In this document: positions 4,408-38,234 of the stretch, one piece after another
Layout of the letters: each line of letters opens with the position of its first letter
Numbering within the stretch: position 1 is the first letter of the stretch
DNA from: Defluviitaleaceae bacterium
Lineage (GTDB): Bacteria; Bacillota; Clostridia; Lachnospirales; WRAX01
Direction of reading: 5' to 3'
Length of the DNA stretch: 60,071 nt
NCBI GenBank assembly: GCA_009784615.1
Contig: WRBJ01000007.1
Span: 1-60,071 of the forward strand
Position numbers and translations under genes: made by a program
The notes under the pieces: model-generated
What the model was told of the DNA's origin: nothing
Seen by the model: only the letters and a program-made list of their open reading frames with translations
Database searches by the model: none

Positions 4408-4794
4408 GTGAAACGAAATACGCTAGGAGGTGGTCTTATTGGAAAAGCATTTATCAGCGCAGATGTAATACGTGGTTATGTTGACCTTATGATTTTAAGG
4501 GTCTTAATGGACGGCGATTCATATGGCTATGAAATCTCCAAAAAAATAACCGCAATATCCCAAGGTATGTACAGTATGAAAGAAACCACGCTATACTCTG
4601 CTTTTTCCCGCATAGAAAAATCAGGCGCAGTACAATCATACCCTGGCACGGTAACAGGCGGCAGAGAACGTATATATTACCGCCTAACCCCCACAGGTTA
4701 CGAAATTTACGCACAAAAATGCAAAGAATGGGCAATAACACAACCCCTAATCAATAAATTTATTATGGAGGAGTATAAAAATGGAAACAATTAG
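4408..4794 (+). CDS. PadR-family transcriptional regulator
   Basis: The winged-helix protein shows the PadR signature (SADVIRGYVDLMILRVLMDGDSYGYEI, then METTLYSAFSRIEK-like and GGRERIYYRLTPTG). Family members are dimeric repressors, often ligand-responsive and autoregulated. The start is uncertain. GTG at 4408 gives 128 residues but lies at the predicted transcription start without a ribosome site. A perfect AGGAGGTG at 4425-4432 is followed about seven bases later by in-frame ATT at 4438, giving 118 residues that begin near the conserved domain. The gene overlaps its membrane partner by 14 bases, a common PadR pairing. Confidence 0.85.
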   Translation: MKRNTLGGGLIGKAFISADVIRGYVDLMILRVLMDGDSYGYEISKKITAISQGMYSMKETTLYSAFSRIEKSGAVQSYPGTVTGGRERIYYRLTPTGYEIYAQKCKEWAITQPLINKFIMEEYKNGNN

Positions 4795-5758
4795 AAATTA
4801 TGTAGAAAATGTTTTTGCGGATTTTCCGCAAAACCCACGGGTTTTACAGCTAAAACGTGAAATGTTACAAGGTATGGAAGAAAAATATAACGAACTACGC
4901 CAATATGGCAAAAGTGAACACGAAGCTATAGCGGGCGTAATAGCAGATTTTGGCAGTATGGACGAAATAGCGCAAGAACTAGGGTTAAACACCGAAAAAA
5001 TTGACGACACCAATAGCATACGTCTAACTCAAAGCGAAGCGGAAGAATACTTGACGCAAAACCGCAAATCAGGTAGATGGATTGGCATAGGTGTATGGAT
5101 AATTTTGGCAGGTGTATCAGGACTTATTATGTTTGGTGGCGAAATTATCGCAATAGGTCCCGCAGTATTCTCTATCGGCGGCAATTTTAACGCATTATCT
5201 AGCATATTTTTATTTAGCGCAATCGCAATCGCCGTACCAATTTTCATAGTAAACGGTATGCGTCTTAATGCCTACGAAGATTATGCAAAGAAAAATATAA
5301 TACTAGATACAACCACCCGCAAAGAAATCGAAAATCAAAACAAACTATACAACTCACGTTTTGCAATTAAAATATCTGTCGGCGTTGGCTCAATTTTGGT
5401 CGGCGTTGCCATTGTTACCGCATTTGCCGCAATAGGCGGATATTATCAAGCCCCACCTGCTTTTTTGCTTTTTGCCATTGGTTTTGGCGTATTTAACTTT
5501 GTTACAGCAGGTATGACAAAAGGTTCTTATGACGTGATATTAAACCAAGGCGATTATGCACACAAAGCCGCCACTTTCAAAAGCGAAAAACTAATAGGCA
5601 CAATTTCAAGCATATATTGGCCTGTTGCAACTGCAATTTTCCTTGCGTGGGGCTTTTTAGGCAACGCTTGGCATATAAGTTGGGTAATCTGGCCAATAGC
5701 AGGCGTACTATTCGCCGCAGTAACAGGCATAGTCAACGCCATTACAAAAAATCAATAA
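4781..5758 (+). CDS. Permease-prefix-domain membrane protein, PadR partner
   Basis: The 325-residue protein begins with an amphipathic region of about 75 residues (YVENVFADFP...LKREMLQGMEEKY...HEAIAGVIADFGSMDEIAQEL) typical of the permease prefix domain / DUF1700-like proteins encoded beside PadR regulators. About six hydrophobic segments follow from residue 100. A strong GGAGGAGTATAAAA site sits inside the end of padR. Its expression is probably controlled by that regulator. The transported or sensed compound is unknown. Confidence 0.75.
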   Translation: METIRNYVENVFADFPQNPRVLQLKREMLQGMEEKYNELRQYGKSEHEAIAGVIADFGSMDEIAQELGLNTEKIDDTNSIRLTQSEAEEYLTQNRKSGRWIGIGVWIILAGVSGLIMFGGEIIAIGPAVFSIGGNFNALSSIFLFSAIAIAVPIFIVNGMRLNAYEDYAKKNIILDTTTRKEIENQNKLYNSRFAIKISVGVGSILVGVAIVTAFAAIGGYYQAPPAFLLFAIGFGVFNFVTAGMTKGSYDVILNQGDYAHKAATFKSEKLIGTISSIYWPVATAIFLAWGFLGNAWHISWVIWPIAGVLFAAVTGIVNAITKNQ

Positions 5759-5842: not shown

Positions 5843-5890
5843 TTCACAAACCCCTTCACAAACCCCTTCAAAAACCCTTTGACAAACCCT
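5843..5890 (+). repeat. Four 12-bp direct repeats at the RRNPP-regulator promoter
   Basis: Four contiguous 12-base units: TTCACAAACCCC (5843-5854), TTCACAAACCCC (5855-5866), TTCAAAAACCCT (5867-5878) and TTGACAAACCCT (5879-5890). The last unit contains the -35 box TTGACA of the following gene. The arrangement looks like an array of protein-binding sites; binding by the downstream regulator is inferred. Confidence 0.75.
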
Positions 5891-5907
5891 GCCACATATT
5901 GCATAAT
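5879..5907 (+). promoter_or_regulatory. Promoter of the RRNPP-like regulator
   Basis: TTGACA (5879-5884), a 17-base spacer and CATAAT (5902-5907). The -35 box lies within the fourth 12-bp repeat, so a protein bound to the array would contact or block polymerase. Confidence 0.7.
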
Positions 5908-5955
5908 AACAAATGATAACTTTATTATATGTGAATACGAGGTGATTTTTGCAAA

Positions 5956-7302
5956 ATGTACACTAATGATAACGAAAAATCCAACAACACCAACACACTA
6001 TCTATCGCCCAAAAAATAAAGCTATTAAGAAATGCAAATGGCATATATCAAGACGAAATGGCAGATATTACCCTTACAAGCCAAGCTAAAATATCAAGAA
6101 TAGAAAATGGCGAAGAATATTATAACGATGATGAAATAAGACTTATAAAAGAACATTTTAATATTGTTGGTATGCCTTTGACAGAGTTTGAACGTAACGC
6201 CTTTAGAGAAAGCCTTTACCATTGGCGTGATTTGCTTAGAAGCGGCAGATTAGACGAAGCTAAAATTAAACAAGATAAATTATCATCAGTTGTAAACTTA
6301 GAACCCTGCGACCCAGATTTGGCTTTGCTCTATTGTTTGTTCGAGGTTATTCATTTGCTTATTAACAAACAGCTTGATGTTGCCGAGGAAAATTTGGCTG
6401 TAATTTATGATAGATTAAATGATGAAAATATTGAACATCTTTATTACTACTATTGTAATAAGGGTTCGTTGTGTGCTATGCAACATAAATATGAAGATGC
6501 TTTAAAATCTTATACCAAGGCTCTTGAATTGAGAGAAAATCATAAAATCAATTCATTGGAAATTGAAGGATGGCTGTACTATAACTTAGCAATTTGTCAT
6601 TCTAAACTTGAACTTCCAATACGTGCCTTAGCATTTATTAATAAAATACCTAAAACGTATATAGACAGCAGAATAACAATTTATGGTCTAGGTATCAATA
6701 TTGAATTTGCTATTAATTGTACCGCAATTGGCGAATATAGAAGTGCCGAAAGAGTGTTAAACGATTGTCTTATAAGAGCAAAGGGTATAAACAATAGCCT
6801 TTTCGAGGGCTTATCATTACATAATCTTGGTATACTGTATGTGCGAGAAGAAAATTGGGATAAAGCTATAGAATGTCTTGACCAAGCGTTTGGTATTTTT
6901 AAAGATAACCCTGTTTATCGCCCTTGGGTTTTGTATTACAAAATCCGTTGCTTAATAGGAAAAAGAGAGTTTCTCGTGGCGGAAAAGGCGATTAAGAAAG
7001 CAAAGGCTATATATAACGAAAATGATGTAAGTTTCATTCTATTTGAAACGCTCATCCACATATTAAAAATAAGCAAACGCTTTTCCGTCTACAACAAAGC
7101 ATCAGTAGAGTATATACAAACTACGTCTGTAAAATATCTAATAGATAACTTTGACAGCATCGAAGCTGTAAACTGTTGCAAACTTCTTGTACGACATTGT
7201 ACAAGAACCAATAAAATGTTAAAAACCCTAGAAGCTAAGGCAATTATAAGTGATATTTACGAAAAGATGTTCATTAATAGAATGGATGGTGATATATTAT
7301 GA
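5956..7302 (+). CDS. RRNPP-like HTH-TPR regulator, predicted peptide receptor
   Basis: The 448-residue protein has an XRE-type helix-turn-helix at about residues 15-70 (IAQKIKLLRNANGIYQDEMADITLTSQAKISRIENG). The rest is an alpha-helical TPR array from about residue 90 to 440, with recognisable repeats such as YYYYCNKGSLCAMQHKYEDALKSYTKALEL and EGLSLHNLGILYVREENWDKAIECLDQAFGIF. HTH plus C-terminal TPRs is the plan of RRNPP receptors (Rgg, PlcR, NprR, PrgX), which bind re-imported signalling peptides; NprR is of similar length. The stop codon overlaps the ATG of a small exported peptide gene. The ATG at 5956 follows GAGGTGAT by about 10 bases. Quorum sensing is inferred from architecture and context. 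Confidence 0.8.
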   Translation: MYTNDNEKSNNTNTLSIAQKIKLLRNANGIYQDEMADITLTSQAKISRIENGEEYYNDDEIRLIKEHFNIVGMPLTEFERNAFRESLYHWRDLLRSGRLDEAKIKQDKLSSVVNLEPCDPDLALLYCLFEVIHLLINKQLDVAEENLAVIYDRLNDENIEHLYYYYCNKGSLCAMQHKYEDALKSYTKALELRENHKINSLEIEGWLYYNLAICHSKLELPIRALAFINKIPKTYIDSRITIYGLGINIEFAINCTAIGEYRSAERVLNDCLIRAKGINNSLFEGLSLHNLGILYVREENWDKAIECLDQAFGIFKDNPVYRPWVLYYKIRCLIGKREFLVAEKAIKKAKAIYNENDVSFILFETLIHILKISKRFSVYNKASVEYIQTTSVKYLIDNFDSIEAVNCCKLLVRHCTRTNKMLKTLEAKAIISDIYEKMFINRMDGDIL

Positions 7303-7421
7303 AAAAGAGATTAACTGCAATAATGTTGGTGTTGATTGCGTTATTTTCATTAAGCTCTGCCGTTTACGCAGAACCTGGTAGCGGCGGCGGGCACCCCCAA
7401 TACTACCAACCCGCATCATAA
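7299..7421 (+). CDS. Exported 40-residue propeptide, candidate signalling peptide
   Basis: This small gene starts with an ATGA overlap on the regulator stop codon and has GGTGAT five bases upstream inside the regulator gene. It encodes MKKRLTAIMLVLIALFSL, then SSAVYA, then the predicted mature part EPGSGGGHPQYYQPAS. Residues 1-24 form a textbook signal peptide with an A-x-A-like cleavage site (VYA|E). The mature 16 residues are Gly/Pro/Tyr-rich without Cys, unlike a lantibiotic. Propeptides encoded directly after the receptor gene are the hallmark of RRNPP systems. The exact processed signal, often five to ten C-terminal residues, cannot be predicted here. Confidence 0.75.
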   Translation: MKKRLTAIMLVLIALFSLSSAVYAEPGSGGGHPQYYQPAS

Positions 7422-7464
7422 TTCCACCACCTGCAATTGATAAATAAAGCATAAAAGCACAAAC

Positions 7465-37739: not shown

Positions 37740-37806
37740 AACTTGAGCGGGTTGAAAATTTTTTTGAGCGGGTTTATTGTAGCCCCGTATACATATCAAG
37801 TAGTGT

Positions 37807-37880
37807 CTTGGCTGGATTGCTTCGGGCTTGGTGTGTGTTGGTTTATGTAGGCGGTAGCCCTCGCAATGACGGGTGGGATT
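37807..37880. repeat. Decayed intergenic inverted repeat
   Basis: ATTGC..GGGCT (about 37817-37829) faces AGCCC..GCAAT (about 37857-37868) across about 27 bases, ending CAATGACGGG. The TTGCTTCG...TCGCAATGACGG pattern recalls short dispersed intergenic repeats seen in many bacterial genomes. No coding sequence is convincing between 37691 and 37886. Confidence 0.35.
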
Positions 37881-37886
37881 GGATGG

Positions 37887-38234
37887 TTATTGTGGCGTTA
37901 TATCTTTATAAGGTAAGACTGAGCATATGATGAGGGTGGTATTGTCGGTGCAATATACGGATAGTCTGTCTTTTGGTTTCCAGCCCAAAGCATCCCTTAA
38001 TGTTTGGGGGAAGAACACCCTGCCTTTTTTTACTTTTGACATTATAATGTTTTGTGGTGATGCTTGTTGGCTGGCGTTTGGTTTTTGGTTTGTTTCTTTT
38101 TGCATAATGACGATATTGCCTATGGGTAAAAGGGTTACTGCATCGTCGGGCAGTAGCCGCAGATGTTTTCTAAATTGAAGGTGGATGGGTATACTGTGCA
38201 GGTCGTCGATTATTCTTATTTCGGCTTTGTACAT
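37887..38234 (-). CDS. Protein with two AbrB-like swapped-hairpin domains
   Basis: The 115-residue protein appears to repeat a beta-rich AbrB-type fold: residues 1-45 (AEIRIIDDLHSIPIHLQFRKHLRLLPDDAVTLLPIGNIVIMQK) and 66-107 (SKVKKGRVFFPQTLRDALGWKPKDRLSVYCTDNTTLIICSV), joined by a Gln/Asn/Ser linker. AbrB/SpoVT/MazE domains dimerise to bind DNA; two in one chain could form a self-contained unit. The ATG follows AGGGGTGTATTTTTT. It is divergent from the candidate small RNA, with about 50 bases between their starts and promoters. It may be a transition-state-type regulator. Confidence 0.65.
   Translation of the reverse strand: MYKAEIRIIDDLHSIPIHLQFRKHLRLLPDDAVTLLPIGNIVIMQKETNQKPNASQQASPQNIIMSKVKKGRVFFPQTLRDALGWKPKDRLSVYCTDNTTLIICSVLPYKDITPQ

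Follow-up and report, generated by a model that had tools for sequence, protein, structure and literature searches.

Does a regulator gene that runs straight into a very short open reading frame (ORF) encode, together with that ORF, a peptide-signalling module, and why should its peptide resemble no other? The question is raised by a locus in the 60,071-nucleotide stretch of DNA from a Defluviitaleaceae bacterium that is analysed here (the window). A sequence-only reading of this DNA had proposed an RRNPP-type receptor paired with its own propeptide. The regulator gene (5956–7302, + strand) starts with ATG and encodes 448 amino acids, and its stop codon shares the four bases ATGA (7299–7302) with the start of a 40-residue ORF (7299–7421, +), as that reading had described. 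Also borne out, by hydropathy, is the signal peptide assigned to the small ORF: MKKRLTAIMLVLIALFSLSSAVYA is of the Sec type, begins with MKKR, ends in V-Y-A and has a best 10-residue Kyte–Doolittle mean of 3.3 in its hydrophobic core.

The surrounding genes offer no obvious partner for the pair. Upstream lie genes for a PadR regulator and a 325-residue membrane protein (4408–5758), and an NAD synthase gene follows 3′ of the pair on the opposite strand. The PadR and membrane protein genes are joined by a start/stop overlap, a common PadR pairing, and the membrane protein has a weak HAAS match.

The regulator resembles NprR and Rap receptors

In Pfam searches the regulator matched TPR_1 (E = 3e-15) and TPR_12 (E = 6e-15), while its N-terminal HTH appeared weakly as HTH_19 (7e-4) and HTH_3 (3e-3), both under the cut-off; the HTH-TPR assignment made from the letters is upheld. 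An AlphaFold2 model (pLDDT 85) places the HTH at residues ∼17–70 and nine TPR-type helix pairs at residues 77–440. A profile built from an alignment of 26 regulators best matched NprR across the whole TPR domain (5dbk, E = 6e-36; 4gpk, E = 3e-35; span 80–421), followed by Rap3T and RapF/H/J. NprR was also the top Foldseek match of the model (E = 1e-8). VIA-align gave Z scores of 30–33 to peptide-bound Rap and NprR, with 29.9 for NprR across residues 78–436, and the first TPR proteins outside RRNPP scored about 23. As modelled, the receptor is NprR/Rap-like: its predicted superhelix, whose groove had been singled out for checking, matches that of peptide-bound NprR and Rap. The window receptor looks intact.

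Propeptide genes accompany the regulator family

The window genome encodes four further paralogues of the receptor at 40–46% identity, giving five modules in all. Behind three of the four lie small ORFs of the exported type, in tandem duplicate at two of these loci, and the fourth is without one. Related genomes contain dozens of homologues, and there a receptor may be followed by one to four such ORFs. In a receptor tree built without Qsr, PlcR or NprR sequences, the window receptor and the paralogue L010 are sisters (support 96/91). One fixed hydropathy rule (not SignalP), which requires the ORF to start between −70 and +30 nt of the preceding stop, finds an exported-type ORF behind 35 of 49 homologous regulators; applied to 112 other genes of the window genome, it finds none. 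This count is the outcome of the search for co-conserved receptor/propeptide pairs that the sequence-only reading had called for. The 46 other propeptides have a common layout of MKKR-type start, hydrophobic stretch, cut site and tail, and many of the tails carry a core rich in Pro and Ile that approximates P-x-I-x-P-[TS]-x-I-x-[IL]-P. The tandem propeptide unit of L012 and L013 carries a copy of the receptor's last codons; the duplication therefore took the receptor 3′ end along.

Receptor and peptide also diverge together. TPR distance correlated with mature-peptide distance (Mantel r = 0.40, 0/2000 permutations) and did so in a partial test on HTH distance (r = 0.29, 0/2000); the HTH–peptide correlation corrected for TPR was weaker (r = 0.19, 60/2000), and common descent contributes to all three values.

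These data bear on a quite different view of the locus, in which the larger gene encodes an ordinary TPR protein, a regulator or phosphatase that binds no peptide, and the small ORF encodes a secreted peptide unrelated to it, such as a bacteriocin. TPR domains do have many binding partners, Rap proteins target other proteins, and the small ORF weakly matches an antimicrobial Pfam family (E = 0.07). Given the 3′ coupling, the co-divergence of TPR domain and peptide, an NprR/Rap fold with peptide-bound structures as the best matches, and tandem propeptide copies as in known RRNPP systems (PMC9765709), we nevertheless consider this view very unlikely. The Pfam match was dismissed as noise, and with it the small ORF as an antimicrobial peptide.

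Strong receptor matches occurred in 9 of 16 genomes of the same family and in 20 of 392 genomes sampled from the order; within a class-wide sample of 391 genomes, the window's own genome was the only one with a strong match. The nearest named relatives are ‘Defluviitaleaceae’ MAGs that stem from a survey of higher-termite guts, where Lab288 stands for Labiotermes labralis and Emb289 for Embiratermes neotenicus (PMC7024585). A viral origin of the receptor was rejected, since a scan based on the receptor alignment, with a single short pattern that distant relatives could escape, found no relative among 2.9 million viral contigs. The window genome encodes two sets of oligopeptide importer genes: an Opp-type operon (C31), with one binding protein, two permeases and two ATPases, and another set (C1). 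Receptor/propeptide pairs that recur across relatives, the NprR/Rap-like fold and the importer genes together give good support to the RRNPP/NprR-type architecture proposed for the locus. The modules are a new multi-copy, NprR-like subfamily of RRNPP, a known type of system.

The window propeptide departs from the family frame at a C5 run

The signal peptide of the small ORF is in the family frame and the tail after it is not. Conservation of the ORF's frame, on which the pairing had been made to depend, thus holds for the signal-peptide half, and the mature half is conserved only in the −1 frame. The point of departure is a run of five cytosines (C5; 7394–7398, +). The tail as read, EPGSGGGHPQYYQPAS, fits the family layout at its first residues only. 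In the −1 frame the DNA from the C5 run encodes PPILPTRIIIPPPAIDK and a stop, the conserved pheromone tail being PILPTRIIIPPPAIDK followed by TAA (7397–7447, +); the tail of the sister paralogue L010 is PPILPTRIIIPPPSLTE, and the core PPILPTRIIIPPP is common to both. The −1 tail scored 76 and 66 against two paralogous peptides, the best score being reached by 0 of 500 shuffles. The tail as read scored 33 against family peptides and was equalled by 81 of 500 shuffles. Across a 36-nt core compared with L010, codon differences number five synonymous and no nonsynonymous in the −1 frame, and no synonymous and six nonsynonymous in the frame as read. Because the −1 tail matches the sister and the core differences are synonymous in that frame alone, the window copy is most likely a frameshifted pro-pheromone gene whose −1 frame still preserves the ancestral tail.

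The 16-residue, Gly/Pro/Tyr-rich mature peptide of the sequence-only reading was therefore read correctly from the letters, but its last residues lie outside the family frame. That it resembles no known peptide is true of the tail as read, most likely because this is a frameshift product; the −1 tail does match the paralogues.

Could the propeptide instead be intact, with EPGSGGGHPQYYQPAS or its end a real, newly evolved pheromone? In favour of this, the reading frame is uninterrupted and has both a good signal peptide and a stop codon, pheromones diverge fast, and the tail keeps the Gly/Pro-rich start of its relatives (GGPGS, DPGG). The shuffling result, in which only the −1 tail stands out, and the replacement of a residue by every one of the six core differences in the frame as read make this very unlikely.

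A mutation of recent date, an error in the assembly or phase switching may account for the shift. All core differences in the −1 frame being synonymous, it is either very recent or absent from the organism. Most long genes of the window appear intact, so that a generally error-ridden assembly is unlikely and a single indel error possible; in the latter case the propeptide gene would be normal. Deliberate switching, through a phase-variable C5 run or a −1 ribosomal slip at CCC, would yield both the altered and the conserved peptide. The shift sits exactly in the homopolymer, the −1 tail looks to be under purifying selection, and the CCC codon could re-pair with CCC after a −1 step. However, C5 is short for phase variation, a canonical slippery heptamer is not present, and 0 of the 46 other propeptides compiled needs a shift, and we regard the production of both peptides as unlikely. 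It is likewise doubtful that C5 is a real switch, by DNA or ribosome slippage, with which a cell or subpopulation silences or alters its own pheromone and keeps the receptor. Such a switch would create a signal-blind or eavesdropping state in a genome that holds the sister's operator and peptide core.

Promoter and candidate operator are shared with the sister module

A sigma-A-type promoter (TTGACA-17-CATAAT; 5879–5907, +; 11/12 matches) precedes the receptor gene and is conserved in L010. An 80-bp promoter/operator block (5876–5955, +) is identical to that of L010 at 73/80 positions (91%), whereas alignable coding DNA of the two loci is only 67–69% identical and the DNA 5′ of the block is unrelated. 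The −10 box and transcription start are covered by an imperfect 41-bp palindrome, CACATATTGCATAATAACAAATGATAACTTTATTATATGTG (5893–5933), which is a candidate operator. A pattern search of the window's own genome located the full palindrome at two sites only, those of the window receptor and the sister paralogue; a third, shorter match lies inside murA and was rejected as an operator copy. Because the block is 91% identical and the palindrome lies over the −10 box, the DNA suggests that the receptor autoregulates and has an operator in common with its sister.

A tandem repeat of the 12-bp unit TTCACAAACCCC (3.9 copies; 5843–5889; Tandem Repeats Finder) lies 5′ of the promoter and reaches into the −35 box. 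It is included in the span given to the module by the sequence-only reading, which began at 5843. Alignment of the upstream regions showed that this repeat is not present at L010.

Some receptors outlast their signal genes

Loss of the signal with retention of the receptor is recurrent in the family. At L017 the signal peptide runs directly into a stop codon, beyond which a plausible tail can be read, and the L083 propeptide is decayed. L011 has no propeptide, and its receptor now terminates in CGECREAVKKTLS, being joined to the tail of an AbrB-type gene (2700–2865). The L011 gene shares 31 identical nt near its end with the 3′ terminus of the AbrB gene in the L012 module, so that the propeptide would most simply have been lost through a deletion fusing the receptor to the AbrB gene end. 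Seven further regulators from a single region of the tree (L018, L029, L031, L036, L076, L077 and L079) are without a propeptide, and five of them form a fully supported clade from several genomes of two families. Taken with the single losses, they indicate that the cognate neighbour gene is dispensable for some members. This NprR-like group could possibly consist of eavesdroppers or of sensors of something else.

The window receptor may itself be an orphan sensor that has a dead signal gene of its own and responds to the peptide of the sister module. Such a role would fit the identical PPILPTRIIIPPP core and 91% identical operator of L010, as well as the signal losses at L017, L083 and L011. 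Against it, the two receptors are only 46% identical, the shift could be an assembly error, and a very recent loss is indistinguishable from polymorphism; we hold this role to be a tentative possibility with somewhat less than an even chance. Recurrent signal loss or frameshift with the receptor retained makes the ‘eavesdropper’ idea (PMC9765709) testable within one genome that has two receptors with a common operator and core.

An AbrB-like third gene follows the propeptides

Many modules carry, directly 3′ of the propeptides, a gene for a 75–95-residue AbrB/MazE-type protein (PF04014) with a CxxC...CxxC tail. All 11 best AbrB-like matches, from five genomes of the family, sit right after propeptides. 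The window genome has three intact CxxC-tailed copies, each after one of three receptor modules. The eight best matches in relatives (E ≤ 6e-15) lie on the same strand and at most ∼1.7 kb 3′ of a receptor gene; weaker matches in relatives resemble generic AbrB. One such gene occupies 8441–8719 of L100, others lie 3′ of the receptors in L098 and L099, and the gene follows propeptides also at L014, L017, L023, L025, L030, L033 and L035. As AbrB-like genes next to phage RRNPP pairs have already been reported (PMC10075063), the third gene described here is an extension of that finding. Its recurrence makes it a concrete candidate output of the modules.

At the window module the AbrB-like CxxC gene was not found, and recent loss was rejected, as a remnant was not seen downstream. 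The sole AbrB-type match in the window (37887–38234, −) is far from the receptor module. It is a two-domain AbrB-like ORF of 115 residues, with a 5′ promoter, CCCCTTGACAAACCCC, that resembles the receptor promoter, and a G+C-rich inverted repeat also lies 5′ of it. A dispersed repeat, GTCATTGCGAGGGCTACC...GAAGCAATCCAGCC, occurs at 37780–37890 of the window and 5′ of the receptor in L013.

All three AbrB copies of the window genome are preceded by TGTCGAA boxes (four in 750 bp, ∼0.14 expected), which have the Spo0A-box sequence known in Bacillus; such sites stand 5′ of the AbrB genes in L010, L012, L013 and L023. Spo0A was found in 18 of 21 genomes searched, genus mate included. A Spo0A gene was not found in the window genome's incomplete assembly, and a Spo0A phosphorelay role for this genome was dropped on that account.

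A model for the module

Very probably, the locus encodes RRNPP-type quorum sensing and belongs to an NprR-like subfamily that has multiplied in uncultured Lachnospirales, with the window propeptide frameshifted at C5. Sec would export the propeptide, signal peptidase would cleave it near A-x-A, and trimming of its C-terminal half outside the cell would yield a Pro/Ile-rich peptide. An Opp-type ABC transporter would bring this peptide back into the cell, where it would occupy the TPR groove of the regulator and alter the regulator's grip on the 41-bp palindrome, the operator that overlies the regulator's own promoter. The small AbrB-like gene after the propeptides would likely be part of the output in many sister modules. 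The window copy as assembled would produce the wrong tail, and its receptor might eavesdrop on the sister's near-identical peptide; alternatively, the frameshift may stem from misassembly or act as a reversible switch.

Comparison with known systems

RRNPP signalling is best known from Bacillus, Streptococcus and a few Clostridium; the present modules extend it to uncultured Lachnospirales, with several receptors per genome, tandem propeptides and a recognisable peptide core. RRNPP systems are defined by a receptor of 250–500 residues with TPR repeats and usually an HTH, an adjacent propeptide of 10–100 residues with an export signal and a spacing of −60 to 400 bp, a mature pheromone in the C-terminal part of the propeptide, and an oligopeptide permease that re-imports it (PMC10075063). 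The window receptor has 448 residues, TPR repeats and HTH helices in the model, and its 40-residue propeptide has a 4-bp overlap, a basic start and a hydrophobic core. The conserved core is present in many relatives' propeptides and, in the −1 frame, in the window copy. Two oligopeptide ABC importer operons are encoded in the genome, and import of the window peptide is predicted.

NprR joins an HTH to a 3-helix bundle/nine-TPR core that is common with Rap (PMC9765709), and the helix list of our model and its Z of 29.9 to NprR agree with this core fold. NprR-NprX of the Bacillus cereus group is like the window pair in its HTH and nine TPR-type repeats, in being the best natural profile and Foldseek match, and in a propeptide gene immediately 3′ on the same strand. 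In contrast, NprR and the window receptor are about 16% identical in the fold alignment, and the window family belongs to Clostridia rather than Bacilli, has several paralogues per genome and includes an AbrB-like gene in many modules. The NprX peptide has the sequence SKPDIVG. The family core P-x-I-x-P-[TS]-x-I-x-[IL]-P differs from it, and the modules are therefore filed as NprR-like, not as NprR. PlcR-PapR, to which the sequence-only reading had also likened the pair, has a short five-TPR receptor; the nine pairs of the window receptor argue against this type, and PlcR is absent from the listed fold matches.

Rap-Phr systems, including the tandem-pheromone pairs Rap3T-Phr3T and Rap105-Phr105 (PMC11343458), have the same TPR fold (Z ∼33), an exported propeptide and duplication of the signal. 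Unlike Rap, receptors of the window family have a DNA-binding HTH, and whole propeptide genes are duplicated in tandem, up to four. Phage RRNPP pairs beside AbrB, Spo0E or Rap genes (PMC10075063) are similar in that a candidate pair adjoins an AbrB-like gene. In the present family, however, the AbrB-like protein is CxxC...CxxC-tailed and its gene follows the propeptides, the modules belong to one bacterial family, and the short-pattern scan matched the receptor to no viral contig.

Qsr-Qsp of Clostridium acetobutylicum (PMC7376267) and QssR-QssP of C. saccharoperbutylacetonicum (PMC7206700) are likewise clostridial HTH-TPR paralogues, with a short precursor per operon (Qsp, 39–50 residues) and an active peptide near its C-terminus. 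Compared by description, Qsp precursors have Leu, Pro and Trp near the end (QspB7, AEPTWGW), in contrast to the Ile/Pro core of the family described here.
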